From the IMG/VR virus record IMGVR_UViG_3300032245_001822, positions 1 through 34,467 of that record: 34,467 nt of DNA; one strand, given 5' to 3'. Both the position numbers and the translations under genes were made by a program. Positions 3,460 to 33,909 of this stretch are shown here, piece after piece (within the stretch, counting starts at the first letter, position 1; the number at the start of each line of letters is the position of its first letter). Under the pieces are notes generated by a model that was given only the letters and a program-made list of their open reading frames with translations, did not search any database and was not told the origin of the DNA. This DNA comes from a virus.

Positions 3460-3476
3460 TTATTTAACCTCCGCTT
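3443..3476. repeat. 34-bp gene-junction repeat, copy B
   Basis: Second copy of the stop/SD/start repeat described at 3203-3236. It joins the end of the TGT-like gene to the start of the 79-residue gene. Confidence 0.85.
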
Positions 3477-4227
3477 GAAGCTCAAAATCCGGAAAAAGTT
3501 CACTTTGGCAAAAATCAATACCAGACCAAACGGAGGCAGATTGATGAGCCTCCACCCTTTCCGCGATGATACTCATCCTTGTGCTTGCATTGGGTGGGAC
3601 ATAAATCCCAAACCTTTTATGGTTCGAAGAGTTCCGCACGGCATTTGTGCTGTCCGCACTCGACAAGGGCAACCGGGTAAATATTTCTGGGTCAAGCATC
3701 CTCAACCCGTGGAGTCTTGCCACTGGTCTGCCTGCCAGATCACAAGAATGCCTCATAACCTCCGCCATACGCTTCCACCATTCAACCGTCCCCACGGTGG
3801 CGAAGGATCCACTTGACCCCAGAGCCACTCGATCCCACTGGGAAACCAGCCGGCCTAGGCGTTCCAAGGACTCATGGAGATGCCAGACTGGAACCCCATC
3901 AGACTCTCCAAGACGGTCCTCCCACTCAATGATCAGTTCATCATTTTCCTCCTCCGTCCCGTCAATAACATCCGGGATAATAGCCCAATCAAAAGCCGGA
4001 TGCCGGCGCCACTGGCGAACAAAATCGTAATAGCCGTCCCAGTTGATTTTCTCGCCTTGTTTCCATGCAGAAAATGCCCCGTTGTCCAGGCAAAATGATT
4101 GGCAAACCTCAGCGGCTGTGCCGATATCCTCAGGCCGAAAAAAGGAAATCAGGGCGTGTCTTCCTTTCAGAAAACGGGCGACATCCTCCCGCGTAGCCCC
4201 GCATGGCGTTCCGTGGTAATGGATCAT
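3460..4227 (-). CDS. TGT/DpdA-like 7-deazaguanine insertion enzyme
   Basis: The 255-residue protein has the order of motifs seen in tRNA-guanine transglycosylase-like TIM barrels of phage DpdA type: CLDNGAFSAW at 46-55, AIIPDVIDG at 82-90, VPVWHLHE at 112-119, VALGSSG at 134-140, RLHGLRM at 171-177 and SSADST at 189-194. Candidate catalytic or base-contacting acids are D48, D86 and D192. DpdA enzymes exchange guanine in DNA for a 7-deazaguanine, protecting phage DNA from restriction. The C-terminal Cys/His zinc site of tRNA enzymes is not evident. No preQ0 pathway genes are in the window, so the base would come from the host. The ATG overlaps the upstream stop (ATGA). A tRNA-modifying role is the alternative. 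Confidence 0.7.
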   Translation of the reverse strand: MIHYHGTPCGATREDVARFLKGRHALISFFRPEDIGTAAEVCQSFCLDNGAFSAWKQGEKINWDGYYDFVRQWRRHPAFDWAIIPDVIDGTEEENDELIIEWEDRLGESDGVPVWHLHESLERLGRLVSQWDRVALGSSGSFATVGTVEWWKRMAEVMRHSCDLAGRPVARLHGLRMLDPEIFTRLPLSSADSTNAVRNSSNHKRFGIYVPPNASTRMSIIAERVEAHQSASVWSGIDFCQSELFPDFELQAEVK

Positions 4228-5901: not shown

Positions 5902-6263
5902 GATTTTCCCCCTCCTTTCTCATCCAGCACGGCCCAGAGGGCGAGATCCTCGGGAAGTTGGGTTTCGGGGTGGTCGCCGTATTCGGCCTGTGCGACCGAT
6001 TTGTGGAGGGCGATGGCCGAGCGGAGGCGTTCGACTTCCTGTTCGGCGTTAAATTTGTTTCTGGTTCGCTCCTGGTTGATGATGATTTTGCGGCCCACAT
6101 TTTGGATCTCATCAAGGATCTTGTCGACGACAATGAGGTTGGACCCGTTGATCGCCTGAATCACCCGGGCGTGCCGAAGCTCGCCCCAAAGAAACAACCA
6201 CCAGGCGGACAGGCCCAGCCCGACCGCGCCGCCCGCCATCACCAGCCAGAAAAGAAAACCCAT
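5898..6263 (-). CDS. small membrane-anchored coiled-coil protein
   Basis: The 121-residue protein starts with a membrane segment (about residues 3-26, GFLFWLVMAGGAVGLGLSAW followed by WLFLW) and continues with a helical, heptad-like region (about 35-90, including VDKILDEIQNVGRKIIINQER). It probably sits in the cytoplasmic membrane with a cytoplasmic coiled coil. A holin-like or superinfection-exclusion role is possible, but its place in the replication block, directly before the initiator-like gene and overlapping it by ATGA, suggests an early function. AGGGGGAG precedes the ATG by six to eight bases. Confidence 0.6.
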   Translation of the reverse strand: MGFLFWLVMAGGAVGLGLSAWWLFLWGELRHARVIQAINGSNLIVVDKILDEIQNVGRKIIINQERTRNKFNAEQEVERLRSAIALHKSVAQAEYGDHPETQLPEDLALWAVLDEKGGGKS

Positions 6264-6298: not shown

Positions 6299-6397
6299 TG
6301 CGAGCGCCGGGATTTGAACCCGGCTCAGGCCGCTTCCGCCCGAATCCCTGTGACCATCTGTGAGAGTGGCCGGTGAATCGGACTTGGTCCCGCCCGC
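6299..6397 (-). ncRNA. tRNA-like RNA, about 98 nt, non-canonical
   Basis: Read on the minus strand, a perfect T-arm (CCGGG, loop TTCAAAT, CCCGG) is followed by CGCTCGC and a discriminator A. Its partner GCGGGCG at 6391-6397 pairs with it at seven of seven positions with one G-U. Between them the folding is unusual: a small GGAC-CAA-GTCC hairpin, a five-pair GGCCA/TGGTC stem with a ten-base loop, and a CAGG/CCTG stem. No standard seven-base anticodon loop is evident and no CCA is encoded. It may be a degenerate or class-II-like tRNA, or a tRNA mimic. Confidence 0.4.
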
Positions 6398-6654: not shown

Positions 6655-6709
6655 TTAAAGAAAACCAACCCCCTGGTTTGTTCAACTGGATGGCCCCAGG
6701 GGGTTGGAG
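6655..6709 (-). terminator. Rho-independent terminator behind the 135-nt tRNA-like RNA
   Basis: A perfect 12-bp stem (CCAACCCCCTGG at 6665-6676 and CCAGGGGGTTGG at 6696-6707) is followed on the minus strand by TTTTCTTT. It begins within a few bases of the 3' end of the tRNA-like RNA, so it looks dedicated to it. Confidence 0.8.
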
Positions 6710-6845
6710 TGAGGATCCCCGGAGTCGAACCGGGTTACTGGACCTACAGGCGCCCTTTCGGGTAGCCATCCGAAAGCGGTATTGATTCTTAAGGTGCCAG
6801 TTGACAGAACCACTGCTCGCGGGTCACCGTGCCCGCCCGATCCTC
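6710..6845 (-). ncRNA. tRNA-like RNA, about 135 nt, with long extra arm
   Basis: On the minus strand GAGGATC (6839-6845) pairs perfectly with GATCCTC (6711-6717), followed by discriminator A. Next to it is a perfect T-arm (CCCGG, TTCGACT, CCGGG). A D-arm-like hairpin GCGGG-CACGGTGA-CCCGC follows the 5' strand. Then come 17 bases, the length of an anticodon arm but pairing poorly (possible loop GTGGTTC). A long arm ACTGGcACCT/AGGTCCAGT is capped by CTTTCGG/CCGAAAG. A terminator follows at once. A tRNA with a giant variable arm, a tRNA with an insertion, and a tRNA mimic are all possible. Confidence 0.6.
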
Positions 6846-6914
6846 AAACTGTGCGGAGCGATCATCAGCCCGGGATGACCGCCCCGCTCCCCGGGCAACG
6901 CGCCCGGGAAAGTC

Positions 6915-9642: not shown

Positions 9643-10332
9643 TTACTCCTTTTCAACGGTGGGAAGTTCAGACGCTTCGACGGGTGGCAAATACCCCAGC
9701 TCGATTCCTTTGCGGACCCAGCCGACCGCCTGATTGGTGGCCAGGATCGCCGCGACGGCGGTCTGGGGAACGGAACCGGGTTGGGGTTTGGCCAGCCAAA
9801 GATCCCCGCAAAAGTCCTGATCCAGGCGCATCGCGGAGAGTGAGTAGCGAAGCATGGGGCAACCGTCGTGGGTCACCCGTCCATGGCGAACCAGATGGGA
9901 AAAGGTTCGGGCCGCCCGCGAGAACACCATGTCATGGGACCCGGTGAAGGGGACCAGATCGGCATGGGGCAGGGGGAGGGTGATCTGTTTGGGATCCAGA
10001 CACACCCGGCGCACGGGGCTTTTCGCCTCGATATCGCTGGCGCGGGCCTTGATCCCGGCAATGGAGGAGAGACCATAGTTGGCAACGAAAGAAACCTTGC
10101 CGGCGATCTCGATCTCCTGGAGATGGGGAACCAGTTCGGCCCACTGGTCCCGGTTGCGATTGGCCAACCAGGTATGGGCCCAAACCAGAAACTTCCCTTC
10201 CCGATACCAGCACGCCCCCAATACCAACGGGCCATGCCCATCGGCCCCGGTCACCGAAAGAAAACAGGGGTCACCCGGCGCGGGCTTCATCAGACTGGCG
10301 CATGCGGCCCATTGGTTTTCGGTGATCAGCAT
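9643..10332 (-). CDS. orphan large-terminase nuclease-like protein
   Basis: The 229-residue protein has no ATPase domain but follows the C-terminal nuclease domain of a large terminase: CFLSVTGADGHGPLVLG at 23-39 aligns with the LDLS...DLTA strand; WYREGKFLVWAHTWL follows as in terminases; RRVCLDP at 108-114 matches the strand with the second catalytic Asp; HGRVTHDGCPMLRYSLS at 150-166 matches the G-x-x-H-G-G-x-P-x-L-x-W block. Of the RNase-H-like catalytic acids only D113 seems kept: the first is S26 and the third (IDPLTA in this phage's TerL) reads SVPQTA. It may be a structure-specific DNA-binding paralogue. SD GGAG is six bases upstream. Confidence 0.55.
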   Translation of the reverse strand: MLITENQWAACASLMKPAPGDPCFLSVTGADGHGPLVLGACWYREGKFLVWAHTWLANRNRDQWAELVPHLQEIEIAGKVSFVANYGLSSIAGIKARASDIEAKSPVRRVCLDPKQITLPLPHADLVPFTGSHDMVFSRAARTFSHLVRHGRVTHDGCPMLRYSLSAMRLDQDFCGDLWLAKPQPGSVPQTAVAAILATNQAVGWVRKGIELGYLPPVEASELPTVEKE

Positions 10333-12724: not shown

Positions 12725-14023
12725 TCAAACCCCTCGGACCTGCCCGATCGCCTGGCGCGCCTTGGCCCGATCCCGTACGGCATAGATCCGCTTGGTGATT
12801 TCCGGGTGAGTGTGGCCCAAAAGCGCCATGGCGTGATCGATGGACATGGTGTTCAGGATCTCATCGGCGGCGGCCTTTCTCAATTGGTTGGTCGACCAGT
12901 GGGGGACGCCGGCCTTTTCACACGCCACTTTGATACATTTGATGAGGCCCGTCACGGTGTAGGCCTGGCCCGGGCGGCGTTTCGATTGGGGGTTCCTGGC
13001 CTTGGCCAGTTCGCTCGGTGTCCGCTTGGTCTTGCGGCTGGCGGCCCGCTCGGCCCAGAGCTCCTCCATCCGCTCCTGGGGACTGAACAGGGGTTTTCCC
13101 GGATCCGCCCGGAAATAGGGGAGCAATATCTCCTGTTCGGGTTTGCCCAACGGGATGCCCCGACCGCGTCCCCGCCACTTGGTCTTGTGTTGGCCGGGGT
13201 GATACCACCAACAGGCGGGATCGGTCCGGTTGATCTGGCCCATGGTCATGGCGCAAAGCTCGCCGGGTCTCATGGCGGTGCGACGGGCGAGCCGGACCAT
13301 GGCGGCGACCACCCGGGGGAGGTGTTCCAGGGTGGCGCGGAGGTCCTCATCGGAGACGGGGAGGATCTCGTCCTCCTCCTCCTCGATCCCTGGCCTGGCC
13401 CGCTTACTCTTGACCACCTTCCACGACACCAGACACGAGGCGGGGATCAGCTCCTCCTCGATGGCCCAGCTCCAGATCACCCGCAACCGTTTGAGAACGA
13501 TGTTGGCGCCAGTCCGCTTCCTTGGTTTGGAGCTGGTGACCTCCCGGGTCACATAGACCAGCTTCCCATCGGGGCCAATTTCTTTCTCATAGACCCGCTT
13601 CCCGTTGACCTCGGTCCAGACCCTGACCCTTCGGGTCGTGACAATGGGGGCGGCCAGGAGATCCGCCTGGAGTTCCCGGACCCGGCGACTCCCGACCGAC
13701 TCGGCGGCGAAGGTGCCGAACAGCCGGACCAACGGCGCGGCGGCGGCCTTGAAATTGTTGAACTCTTTCCGGCTGTATTCGGCCTTGGCATATTTCAGGA
13801 ACGCGACGACCAGCTCGACGACGGTGATCTCCTGGGACGCCCCGACCGAGGGGGCCTGACCGGAGAACAGCTTGCCCAGGAGGGCCTCATACTGGAGGAG
13901 GATTTTGGCGGGGGCTTTCCGCTCCCCGTCCGGCCAGGTTCCTTCGAAGTAGAGGACCTTGCCCTTAACCGTTATGTAACCGATTTTGTGCTTTTTGTGC
14001 CGGCAAAGTTTCGGAATTCTCAC
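12725..14023 (-). CDS. int: tyrosine integrase, planctomycete type
   Basis: The 432-residue protein has an N-terminal arm domain beginning RIPKLCRHKKHKIGYI, a SAM-like core-binding domain (about 65-200) and a C-terminal catalytic domain with R252 (RRTAMRPGEL), K280 or K282, N379-x2-R382 (STNQLRKAA), H404 (LLGHTHPE) and Y414 (TKRIYAV). The N replacing the usual first H of box II and the PLFSP...R...R block are, as I recall, typical of planctomycete enzymes. It integrates the phage at the attP beside it. The ATG lies close to inverted TTCTGTAGT arm sites at 14050-14069. Confidence 0.92.
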   Translation of the reverse strand: MRIPKLCRHKKHKIGYITVKGKVLYFEGTWPDGERKAPAKILLQYEALLGKLFSGQAPSVGASQEITVVELVVAFLKYAKAEYSRKEFNNFKAAAAPLVRLFGTFAAESVGSRRVRELQADLLAAPIVTTRRVRVWTEVNGKRVYEKEIGPDGKLVYVTREVTSSKPRKRTGANIVLKRLRVIWSWAIEEELIPASCLVSWKVVKSKRARPGIEEEEDEILPVSDEDLRATLEHLPRVVAAMVRLARRTAMRPGELCAMTMGQINRTDPACWWYHPGQHKTKWRGRGRGIPLGKPEQEILLPYFRADPGKPLFSPQERMEELWAERAASRKTKRTPSELAKARNPQSKRRPGQAYTVTGLIKCIKVACEKAGVPHWSTNQLRKAAADEILNTMSIDHAMALLGHTHPEITKRIYAVRDRAKARQAIGQVRGV

Positions 14024-14134: not shown

Positions 14135-14143
14135 TTTCTTGAG

Positions 14144-14190
14144 AGGGCCCTCCCGGATTCGAACCGGGGAATAACGGTTTTGCAAACCGT
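14144..14190 (-). tRNA. partial tRNA-Cys(GCA), 3' half (attP core)
   Basis: On the minus strand an anticodon arm ACGGT-TTGCAAA-ACCGT (anticodon GCA), a five-base variable region, a perfect T-arm CCCGG-TTCGAAT-CCGGG, AGGGCCC and the discriminator T typical of tRNA-Cys follow in order. No 5' acceptor strand GGGCCCT and no D-arm precede it, so only the 3' half is present. It is the expected identity segment that restores the host tRNA-Cys gene after integration. Confidence 0.8.
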
Positions 14191-28565: not shown

Positions 28566-30575
28566 TTAGTTCAGGTAGACGTAAGGCGAAACCTGGGTCG
28601 AGGCATCGGCCAGGGTGACCGCGCCTTTCATCCAGGGCTGGCCATCGACGCGGGTCACAAAGCGCCAGGTCGATTGGTTGTTGGTGAACGCGGCGTGTTC
28701 GGAGTATCCGATCTCGACCTGTTTGCGGTCGCCGATCAGATAGTGTTCGAAGTTGGCCAGGAGAACATCGCGAGCGGTTCCCAGAGCGGGGAGCTTTTCG
28801 GTCGGGATCACCGGGATACCGAGCAATTGGAAAAGCGGGGTTTGGGTCGCGCCGCCACCCAGGACCGTTGGGGTCAGGGTGATGTTGTTGTTTCCGGCAT
28901 CGACCATCGTGAGCAGTTGCCCAATGACCGACTGCTGAATGATCCAGGCGGATTTTTGGAAAGAGTAGCCGGGGAGGAACTTGGCCAGCATGGCCACGGC
29001 GTCGACGAATTTGAAGGTGGTAGCCGTGTTGCGCGAAACCGAAAGGGCGGCGGCGTTGTTGGCCGAACCGATGCCCAAAGGTTTGGCGACGCCATCACCC
29101 CGGAGAAACGCGTAGTCCTCGTGGAACATGATGGCTTTCCCGAAGATGGTGATCAGGACCTGTTCGATCCCGATGGCCGAGTCCTCGATCAGCGAGTTGG
29201 CCGCCTTGGAATATCCGGAAAGCTCGTGGGCGGTGAGCTCCAACTGTTTGAAATCGGGCTCGGTTTCGTTGAGCGTCGCCGCTTCACCGGTCCAGCGGGC
29301 GACCAGACCACCATTGAAAGCGCTATCTCCTGCGGTGGGGGTGCTGAAGTGATTCAGATAGGGGACCTGCATCGTCCGCGAATTCATCGGGACGATGGTC
29401 GAACGGGGGCGGGCGATCCCCTGTTCTCCCGCGACCTGGTAGAGGTTGGGCAAATATTCGGTCGGGACCAAAAATCCGCCCAGGGCGCCAGAGCTTCCGG
29501 TCATCGCGGTACGGGTTTGATATTTGCGCTCGATGTAGGCGCGATCGTTGCGGCGAACCGCCAGGGCCCAGTCGCCAAAGCTCCGATCCCGGTTGTGGGT
29601 GTCGGTCTCTTTTTGACCGGCGAACATGCGGCCAAGCATTCCCCGCTGGGAGAGTGCCTGGGCGTTGCCTACGCCCTTGACCAGTTCATCAATCGTTGCC
29701 CGGAGCTTTTGCAGCTCGGCGCTTTGGGCCTCATAGTTGGGTTGTCCCTCGGCGGAAGGGGCCGAGCGGGTGACGACATTGGGGGCGCTCATGCGTTGGG
29801 CCTCTCCTTCGGTGGGCGGGGGTGGGGCGGAAGGCTCCTCGGTCTGGTCCATGGCCTGATCCGCCGAGACGATCGAGAGGATCTGGGAAAGGCCTCCCTT
29901 GATGGCGTCAATCTCGGCCTGTTGTTCGGGGTCAAATGCCCTCGACTGGGTGGGAGCGGCTTTCCCGGCGGCGGGTGCGGCGGGTTTGGATCCGGCGTTC
30001 TGGTTTCCGGGGGTGGACATGTGGCGGGCCTCGGTGTGGGTGGTGTGAGGGTTTGCGGCAAACGGGACTCCCACACTGATTTCGTGGAGGTCGCCGCGTA
30101 TCACACACGAAGTACCAACGCCCTTTGGGTCGACCGTGTAATCCACGATTGTCGACCTCTCAAAATCCTCAAACCCGTAGGAGTTGCGCGGAACGATCCC
30201 CGCCTGGATTCGTTTCCAGGCGTCGCGGTCCGATTCGGTGTCGAGCAACGTCGCCTCAAACCAGATCCCGACTTCATCCTCCCAGACCCGGAGATTTCCC
30301 GCCTCGGTCGCAGCGAGCACCCGGCCCCGGTCGTGGTTCCACATGAGATAAATCGGGTGATTTTTCTGGGCCAAATCAAACGCGCCACGGCGAATGATTT
30401 CGTACATGGGCTCGGGAGTCGGTTCCCCGGGGGTCTCTTCGGGCGTATGGCAGCGAAAGGCGGTGGGGACATCAAACGGAACGCCCAGACCGGTGAGCTT
30501 CATCGGCTGGCCATCGGCTCCGCCCGATGCGGTCAGCCGGTCGGCGGGCATGTCACGATGGCAGAGGACGGGCAT
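28566..30575 (-). CDS. fused prohead protease and major capsid protein
   Basis: A single 669-residue frame joins an HK97-type protease domain (about 25-175) to a capsid domain (about 350-669). Protease residues: H81 in LMWNHDRG, S132 in RNSYGFED and E165 in DLHEISVG. A Pro/Ala/Gln-rich linker with a short coiled coil (185-345) probably acts as the scaffold delta domain. The capsid body starts near MTGSSGALGGFLVPTE, with LEDSA-like spine-helix features and a late FEHYLIGDRKQVEI. In most phages these are separate genes. GGAGG precedes the ATG. Confidence 0.85.
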   Translation of the reverse strand: MPVLCHRDMPADRLTASGGADGQPMKLTGLGVPFDVPTAFRCHTPEETPGEPTPEPMYEIIRRGAFDLAQKNHPIYLMWNHDRGRVLAATEAGNLRVWEDEVGIWFEATLLDTESDRDAWKRIQAGIVPRNSYGFEDFERSTIVDYTVDPKGVGTSCVIRGDLHEISVGVPFAANPHTTHTEARHMSTPGNQNAGSKPAAPAAGKAAPTQSRAFDPEQQAEIDAIKGGLSQILSIVSADQAMDQTEEPSAPPPPTEGEAQRMSAPNVVTRSAPSAEGQPNYEAQSAELQKLRATIDELVKGVGNAQALSQRGMLGRMFAGQKETDTHNRDRSFGDWALAVRRNDRAYIERKYQTRTAMTGSSGALGGFLVPTEYLPNLYQVAGEQGIARPRSTIVPMNSRTMQVPYLNHFSTPTAGDSAFNGGLVARWTGEAATLNETEPDFKQLELTAHELSGYSKAANSLIEDSAIGIEQVLITIFGKAIMFHEDYAFLRGDGVAKPLGIGSANNAAALSVSRNTATTFKFVDAVAMLAKFLPGYSFQKSAWIIQQSVIGQLLTMVDAGNNNITLTPTVLGGGATQTPLFQLLGIPVIPTEKLPALGTARDVLLANFEHYLIGDRKQVEIGYSEHAAFTNNQSTWRFVTRVDGQPWMKGAVTLADASTQVSPYVYLN

Positions 30576-30629
30576 GGGGGAGCCTCCAGACAAAAGGGGT
30601 CTGGAGGGGAAGTACCGGGAGAGGGAAAA

Positions 30630-32223: not shown

Positions 32224-33909
32224 TCAAAGGATGTGCAATTGAAATTCCGAACCCGACAAAAGCGGGTTGGAGATGAGGGCCCGTTCGACAGCCATGAGCG
32301 ATGCGGTGAGGGGGTCGATCCGGACTCCTGCCGAGCGGTTTTTGGAGGGGAATTTCATCTGGGTATTGGGGTGTATGGTCATCACTACGTTTTCGATGGC
32401 GTGTTTTAAAAGCGGATCGTCATCGTGAAAGATCCGGCGTTCCAGGGTCGCCCGCTCGAAGGTGGCGACGGCGGGGCACATTTGCGCGGGGCGGTTGGGG
32501 AATTTGACCGTTTCGACCCCGGAGAATTCGTTTTCGATTTCGTTGATTAGCGGGCTGGCCGCGTAAGGGTCGAAGATGATTTCCCGAAGGTTTTCGGTCT
32601 CGAAGATTTTGCGGATGTATTCCTTGAGACTTTCAAACGACATGGTCAGGCCGGGGAGGATGGTTAGAGAGCCGAGATCCTGCCAGCGGCGGTAAAGATC
32701 GGGCGGGATCCGCTCGGCCCGCTCCAGGGCGGCGGATGGAATCCATGAGTGTTGGCGCAAAAGGAGGACATCGTCCTGGGTGTAGCATCGGGCGGCGCTT
32801 GTCAAATCGCTCACCCGCGATAGATCCAGACCCAAAAAACAGGGTGCCCGCTCCACCGGGAGGACGGCGGGCATGGCGCACGAGCTCCAATCCATCTGGG
32901 AGAGCCAGCCGGTGATATGCGTCGAATCAAACCAGTTGAGGTAATAGGTGAGAAACGCCGCTTTTTTGGAGGCGGAGTTGCGAGCTTTGGCCGCTTCGCG
33001 GCGCATGTAGGCCAGGGTGACCGATTTGCCCAGGCCGGGCATCGCTTTTTTCCAGTTCTCCTCATCGTCCCAGGGGAGCGAGCGGTCCCCCTCATAGATC
33101 ACGCCGTGATAGTTGGGGGCATCGATCTTGCCGGCCTTGACCGCTTTGGCGTGCTCGACCATTTTCCCGACGACCGATTCCTCATGGGGGCCAGCAGTGG
33201 AAATGTAGATCGAAAGGGGAGCATCACGGACGCCCATCCCCGTCCGGACGGAGTTGATCAGGTCATCGTTTTTGATGGCGACGACTTCATCGAGAATGAA
33301 AACGGACGGATTCAGACCCAAGGCGCCCAGGGCATCGGATGGCAAAACCTTTAAGAGGCCGTTGGTCGAAGGGACGATAATCTCGTCCTTGAGCACCCGG
33401 CAACGCGACGACAAAGCGGGACACCCTTTGATCATCTTGGCGGCGATATCGAAGAGTAACCGGGCCTGGTCCTTGTCGGAGGCGCAAACATAGATTTCGG
33501 GCTGAGGATCGGAGCGGTCGAGGAAAAGAAAATAGAGGGCAAGGATCGCGATCAGGGTGGTTTTCCCCTGTTTTCTGGGCAGAAATAAAAACGCCTCGTC
33601 AATGATCCGGACGCCCGCCTCGTCGCAGTTATCCAAAACGGGCTTGAGAAAACCCTCGACCTGCCACGGATCGAGCTCGATCGGCTTGCCGATCAGTTTC
33701 CCTTTCTGGTGTTTGAGTTTTCTTGCGAAGCGGCGGAAGCGTTCGGAGTGGGGGAGGGAAAGGAGGGCGCCGGGGGGTTTGGCGGGATCCGGTTTAAGCT
33801 GGCCGGGTGCCTGGTCAGGAAGCGAACGGGAGGCGCCGGGCGCGGGACTCAGGGAATGGGCGGGCGCCGGGGAGATCTCCTGGGCAATGGGCCCCGGGTT
33901 CCCGGTCAT
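32224..33909 (-). CDS. terL: large terminase subunit (HK97 type)
   Basis: The 561-residue protein has an ATPase domain with Walker A PRKQGKTT (111-118) and Walker B VFILDEV (203-209), and an RNase-H-like nuclease with D362 (LGLDLS), D448 (IIFDPYA) and D532 (RIDPLTA). It packages DNA into the prohead. The first 50 residues are a Pro/Ala-rich extension beyond the usual start. The ATG overlaps the small subunit stop (ATGA). Confidence 0.95.
   Translation of the reverse strand: MTGNPGPIAQEISPAPAHSLSPAPGASRSLPDQAPGQLKPDPAKPPGALLSLPHSERFRRFARKLKHQKGKLIGKPIELDPWQVEGFLKPVLDNCDEAGVRIIDEAFLFLPRKQGKTTLIAILALYFLFLDRSDPQPEIYVCASDKDQARLLFDIAAKMIKGCPALSSRCRVLKDEIIVPSTNGLLKVLPSDALGALGLNPSVFILDEVVAIKNDDLINSVRTGMGVRDAPLSIYISTAGPHEESVVGKMVEHAKAVKAGKIDAPNYHGVIYEGDRSLPWDDEENWKKAMPGLGKSVTLAYMRREAAKARNSASKKAAFLTYYLNWFDSTHITGWLSQMDWSSCAMPAVLPVERAPCFLGLDLSRVSDLTSAARCYTQDDVLLLRQHSWIPSAALERAERIPPDLYRRWQDLGSLTILPGLTMSFESLKEYIRKIFETENLREIIFDPYAASPLINEIENEFSGVETVKFPNRPAQMCPAVATFERATLERRIFHDDDPLLKHAIENVVMTIHPNTQMKFPSKNRSAGVRIDPLTASLMAVERALISNPLLSGSEFQLHIL

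Follow-up and report, generated by a model that had tools for sequence, protein, structure and literature searches.

To our knowledge, RNAs that mimic tRNA are usually known one at a time. Bacterial Y RNA (YrlA) is a noncoding RNA with a tRNA-mimic module, its ends forming the Ro-binding stem and the tRNA-like module being internal, and tmRNA joins a tRNA-like end, in Escherichia coli with a TTCAACT T-loop, to a middle that is not tRNA. In biotechnology, a tRNA scaffold is used to stabilise inserted RNAs. Phages often carry the 3′ halves of tRNAs. An RNA antitoxin that neutralises the Abi protein owes its activity to abiF motifs (RF03085; PMC12373285). Here we describe, in very different phages, a previously uncatalogued family of tRNA-like RNAs in which the tip and elbow of tRNA are kept and the decoding part is replaced, starting from one element (element A) in a stretch of viral DNA of 34,467 nt (the window). 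We are highly confident that such a family exists.

The family resembles several described systems in part. With class II tRNA and tRNA-Sec it shares a 7-bp acceptor, a D-like arm and a T-arm at tRNA spacing, and tRNA-Sec (RF01852) was the nearest model in an Rfam search of one member (L102), at 27 bits and under the cut-off of that model; however, the family has no anticodon arm, carries GG at positions 8–9 and A before the T-stem, and has interiors that are unrelated to each other. Like tmRNA, it has the acceptor and T-arm of a tRNA, a similar T-loop and an anticodon domain that has been swapped out, but it is far shorter (103–150 nt), has a paired and near-invariant D-hairpin, lacks a conserved tag frame and pseudoknots, and is unmatched by tmRNA models. 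YrlA also has a tRNA-mimic module, whereas here the RNA ends themselves form the tRNA acceptor, and no Rfam match to YrlA appeared among the searches of element A and other members. tRNA halves at phage attachment sites likewise place a tRNA T-arm and acceptor strand inside a phage genome, yet these are host copies without a 5′ acceptor of their own (element C below is one), whereas element A is self-contained and was not found in the host genomes searched. The abiF RNAs are small structured phage RNAs too, with a fold different from that of the family, and the link is one neighbourhood only, in which an abiF motif directly precedes a member.

Element A reads, on the minus strand from 6845 to 6711, GAGGATC-GG-GCGGGCACGGTGACCCGC-(84 nt)-CCCGG-TTCGACT-CCGGG-GATCCTC, then A and a terminator (Table 1). 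A preliminary description had reported a 7/7 acceptor, a consensus T-arm, a 5-bp D-like hairpin and a terminator directly behind, and all are present: the acceptor strands GAGGATC/GATCCTC are 7/7 Watson–Crick, the hairpin GCGGG-CACGGTGA-CCCGC begins two bases past the acceptor, and the 50 nt downstream outfold 99.7% of this phage's stretches. The acceptor and the T-arm with its consensus loop are traits of tRNA, and the description was also right that this is not a normal tRNA: ARAGORN at default settings called neither tRNA nor tmRNA, the RF00005 tRNA model gave no match at E 10, and no Rfam family, tmRNA included, matched element A above threshold. Strict T-arms number three in the window, compared with 0.04 expected from shuffles; the chance of a 7/7 Watson–Crick acceptor partner in range is ~1.3% for element A, and the whole element folds modestly better than its shuffles (z −1.9). 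The hairpin upstream may be a leader or the end of an upstream transcript, and upstream hairpins are weakly enriched across the family (combined p 0.02).

Table 1 Features of the window. Positions are those of the window; all features lie on the minus strand.
Feature	Position	Strand	Description
Element A, whole tRNA-like RNA	6711..6845	−	135 nt; sequence, R1/R2 covariance models and 8 homologues
Element A acceptor 5′ strand, GAGGATC	6839..6845	−	7/7 with 6711–6717; family-wide, 7/7 pairs covary
GG linker (positions 8–9)	6837..6838	−	Replaces usual U8-A9; family: GG 6/9, GT 2/9, CG 1/9
D-like hairpin, GCGGGCACGGTGACCCGC	6819..6836	−	Near-invariant; same in 9 members except loop G/T and last-base C/T (G-C/G-U)
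Hypervariable interior	6735..6818	−	84 nt at anticodon-domain position; family 52–99 nt; 9+7 bp arm in element A
Base preceding T-stem, A	6735	−	A in 9/9 members
T-arm, CCCGG-TTCGACT-CCGGG	6718..6734	−	5/5 paired; 3/5 pairs covary on both sides; loop TCRACT 9/9
Element A acceptor 3′ strand, GATCCTC	6711..6717	−	Directly 3′ of T-arm
Element A discriminator, A	6710	−	CCA not encoded
Intrinsic terminator	6657..6705	−	10-bp stem AACCCCCTGG/CCAGGGGGTT, then TTTTCTTT; directly behind element A; sequence and fold
Strong hairpin upstream of element A	6853..6887	−	14 bp, 7-nt loop; ends 7 nt before element; fold in top 0.3% of phage
Element B, tRNA-like	6300..6397	−	T-arm CCGGG-TTCAAAT-CCCGG; acceptor 7/7 with one G-U; family hairpin absent
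Element C, attP, tRNA-Cys(GCA) 3′ half	14142..14190	−	Matches tRNA-Cys of three planctomycete genomes exactly over up to 49 nt
Tyrosine integrase	12725..14023	−	432 aa; phrog_1, 4.7e-24
Queuine tRNA-ribosyltransferase-like protein	3460–4227	−	phrog_887, 1.3e-77
Terminase-like protein	9643–10332	−	229 aa; resembles large terminase C-terminal half (phrog_9, 6.8e-11)
Head protein	28566–30593	−	C-terminal part: 44–57% relatives in ~22/102 genomes of host's order

Searches through the neighbouring rep, small zinc-type protein and terminase gave no relatives or only distant ones, which left the RNA itself as the source of covariation. A covariance model built from element A alone (R1) was run on 102 genomes from the order of the host and gave a single strong match (L066:1501–1603; 48 bits, E 2.9e-6). 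This match lies in a planctomycete prophage, with a RecE-type nuclease, a RusA-like protein, CsrA, large terminase and portal as neighbours and a tRNA-Leu gene beginning two bases further on; its hairpin differs from that of element A at a single loop base, and its acceptor, CCACACG/CGTGTGG, is perfectly paired and completely unlike element A's. Scanning viral contigs with the hairpin alone found 26 stretches, five of which (L095 among them) have a T-arm and a 7/7 acceptor at element A's exact offset, against none of 10,400 shuffled versions. Element A is a real feature, and this recurrence in other phages is the decisive evidence that it did not arise by chance. A relaxed hairpin and T-loop pattern added two members, L102 and L111, which brings those reached through the hairpin, all from uncultivated phages, to seven; its chance matches have no acceptor, and the two classes separate cleanly. 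With L066 and element A itself, the family has at least nine members, which a covariance model of all nine (R2) scores at 83–98 bits, the best non-member reaching 31.5 bits.

Other searches returned little. R2 and a gapped pattern gave weak or chance matches only in 392 planctomycete genomes (R2 scored eight candidates per genome), blastn of two members against isolated phages yielded only chance or ordinary tRNA fragments, and the literature searched contained no description of this family. A match at L068 to the D-hairpin region resembles a coding start. At L152 (3104–3181, +), in a phage (G499) that also has a family member, a 78-nt tRNA-like stretch has a perfect acceptor, GCCCGCC/GGCGGGC, and a T-arm, and ARAGORN makes no call on it.

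Each of the nine members has a 7-bp acceptor of a different sequence. Across the 17 pairs of acceptor, D-hairpin and T-stem, all 153 helix cells of the nine sequences are paired, among members whose calling used acceptor pairing. The pairs show 37 two-sided changes; both sides vary at every one of the seven acceptor pairs and at three T-stem pairs. The covariation score is 0.711, whereas shuffles give 0.171 and slid partners no more than 0.11. The family hairpin GCGGGCACG(G/T)TGACCCG(C/T), two bases after the acceptor, is near-invariant, changing only at one loop base and from G-C to G-U at the last pair, a constancy that is partly a search product, given that only the search that reached L066 was looser, and that one used a model of element A. 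No search imposed the A immediately before the T-stem or the C in the T-loop at the equivalent of position 59, and both occur in 9/9 members. The T-loop is TCRACT throughout, the discriminator is A in six members and C in three, and CCA is not encoded. Element A has the full set: the 7/7 acceptor, a 2-nt linker, GCGGGCACGNTGACCCGY, A before the T-stem and a TCRACT T-loop. Comparison of the members shows acceptor, D-like hairpin and T-arm to be an RNA-level structure under strong selection.

The interiors behave otherwise. Over 36 pairs they show no sequence similarity (mean z −0.05), conserved structure was looked for in them and not found, their minimum free energies are at random level, and none of the nine members has a canonical anticodon arm (5 bp, 7-nt loop, after the D-arm) with 5/5 pairs. 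In element A the interior folds into a bulged 9-bp helix followed by one of 7 bp, at the 42nd percentile of stability among random same-length stretches of the same phage. Because the interiors have no shared sequence, excess stability or anticodon arm, the 9+7 bp arm and the terminator belong to element A and not to the family. Two candidates were tried and rejected: an antisense payload against the own phage is unsupported, the longest interior matches to the own phage genome being at chance level, and a shared reading frame from the D-loop GTG (MTREQWFCQLAP* in element A) has no common peptide or stop.

Seen against the preliminary description, element A has become stronger in one respect and weaker in another. 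The proposal of a tRNA mimic has gained a family with covarying acceptor and T-stem and a D-hairpin that hardly varies. The giant 9+7 bp arm does fold in element A, but it is not conserved, is of random-level stability and is incidental. A tRNA with an extreme variable arm, or an insertion in a tRNA, is not supported: removing the interior leaves no tRNA, and interior sequence and fold differ in every member.

Judged from these sequences, element A is rather likely to be a free-standing noncoding RNA gene in a tRNA-mimic family outside Rfam, its elbow a handle and its middle a phage-specific insert. It is unlikely to be a true but aberrant tRNA, either of class II or with an intron in the anticodon region whose removal gives a decoding tRNA. 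Acceptor, D-like arm and T-arm do stand in tRNA order and spacing, and ARAGORN, with its threshold forced down, suggests a tRNA of 97 nt containing a 40-nt intron. Against this, default ARAGORN and RF00005 found nothing, positions 8–9 are GG rather than U8-A9, the D-stem is followed by a canonical anticodon arm in none of the members, and the interiors are without common sequence or splice signals. Decoding by element A, or charging by one synthetase, would also be unlikely, given the missing canonical anticodon arm and an acceptor whose sequence changes from member to member.

A reduced tmRNA-like RNA that acts with SmpB and the ribosome, possibly through a short frame from the D-loop GTG/TTG, is quite unlikely. 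Besides the composite build and similar T-loop of tmRNA, both hairpin variants preserve a start codon (GTG/TTG) and an Arg codon (CGC/CGT), and start-Thr-Arg is possible in all members. However, ARAGORN found no tmRNA, no tmRNA family of Rfam scored above threshold, the frame is 12 codons long in element A and runs far beyond the element in the others, with no peptide in common, and 52–99 nt is too short for the known pseudoknots. We find it very improbable that the conserved unit works as DNA, for example as a palindromic protein site: the hairpin is near-palindromic and could be an operator, but a fully changing acceptor with pairing kept has no reason in a DNA site, and a T-arm in tRNA geometry with a conserved 7-nt T-loop is equally unexplained. 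Least probable of all is an origin from the 3′ end of a host tRNA, as a relic or copy (an attP or old attachment site) with a chance 5′ acceptor match, for although element C is exactly such a copy and tRNA halves are common in phages, the T-arm and acceptor of element A are absent from 199 planctomycete genomes (≤2 mismatches) and from the three closest host genomes (≤3 mismatches), the attP sites of these phages lie elsewhere, and the architecture recurs with different acceptors in eight other elements, where the offset is constant and the pairing 7/7 every time. The 3′ end of element B was absent from 149 planctomycete genomes (≤2 mismatches), and T-arm/acceptor patterns of elements A and B found nothing in viral contigs and planctomycete genomes.

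For element A as the gene of a tRNA-mimicking RNA, we can propose a role only tentatively. As in tRNA, the T-arm would stack on the acceptor to form a 12-bp acceptor/T helix of the kind recognised by RNase P, the 3′ processing machinery and the CCA-adding enzyme, and the D-like loop would dock on the T-loop as in the tRNA elbow. Given a helix and elbow of tRNA type, host tRNA enzymes would mature the RNA, trimming and stabilising it like tRNA. The elbow may then be a stability or recognition handle that presents the phage-specific insert, which is the least certain step, and the insert RNA might act in trans early in infection; speculatively, it could be a decoy that draws off tRNA-directed host defence, or it could be regulatory. 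The likeliest function seems to be that of a trans-acting or counter-defence RNA. A broader scheme, which we consider doubtful, would make the conserved elbow a chassis for fast-changing inserts: host enzymes would mature the RNA, the D-hairpin would bind a conserved host partner, and the inserts would neutralise or redirect varied host targets, such as tRNA-directed or RNA-toxin defence.

With covarying ends, a near-invariant D-hairpin and unrelated middles, such a family goes unnoticed by Rfam and by finders of tRNA and tmRNA. Were it expressed, it would amount to a natural counterpart of the tRNA scaffold of biotechnology, and it would open a direct way to study the use of RNA against the host by phages of little-studied bacteria, planctomycetes for example. 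The family model is simple enough for one search across all viral data.

The early region, with its genes for replication and recombination, is where most members are found; the one at L089 lies among tail genes. No protein family is common to all the phages, and an integrase was detected in four of the nine. Among these phages, G498 (L095) alone shows broad relatedness to the window phage (portal 27%, other genes 24–58%), and between these two the chassis is the same and the interiors are unrelated. Eight nucleotides upstream of the L089 member, in a contig of 7.4 kb that shows no AbiF gene, is an abiF RNA motif (RF03085, 48.3 bits; 5946–5982, +). This neighbour, found for one member of nine, hints at RNA-based counter-defence, and the motif is possibly an anti-AbiF antitoxin mimic. 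Elsewhere in G498 (L150, 15220–15640, +), degenerate GGCAGGCGAGGC-like repeats end in a T-arm, where ARAGORN makes a dubious call of a 90-nt tRNA-Ala. In phage G494 (L142, ~15141, −), a tRNA-Cys 3′ half with encoded CCA is probably the attP, which suggests a host different from that of the window phage.

The window phage is temperate, and its genes include integrase, major head protein, portal and large terminase. Element C, whose T-arm at 14163 is the third in the window, adjoins the integrase and is a separate feature outside the RNA family; at L004 the same tRNA-Cys half occurs without the 5′ part of the tRNA, as after the integration of another element. The three planctomycete genomes that match element C also contain the closest relatives of the head protein (54–57%), and the closest integrase is likewise in one of the three. 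A planctomycete is therefore very probably the host. The acceptor of element B has a ~6% chance of accidental origin, and element B was rejected as a family member, having no R2 match. Some match to the C-terminal part of the head protein occurs in 32 of the 102 genomes of the host's order. No homologue of the window phage's terminase or portal was seen in the stretches read beside the relatives listed in Table 1, which may be domesticated or come from other prophage types. The queuine-type protein is perhaps concerned with 7-deazaguanine modification of DNA or tRNA. Besides the 229-aa terminase-like protein, the window encodes a full large terminase at 32224–33909.
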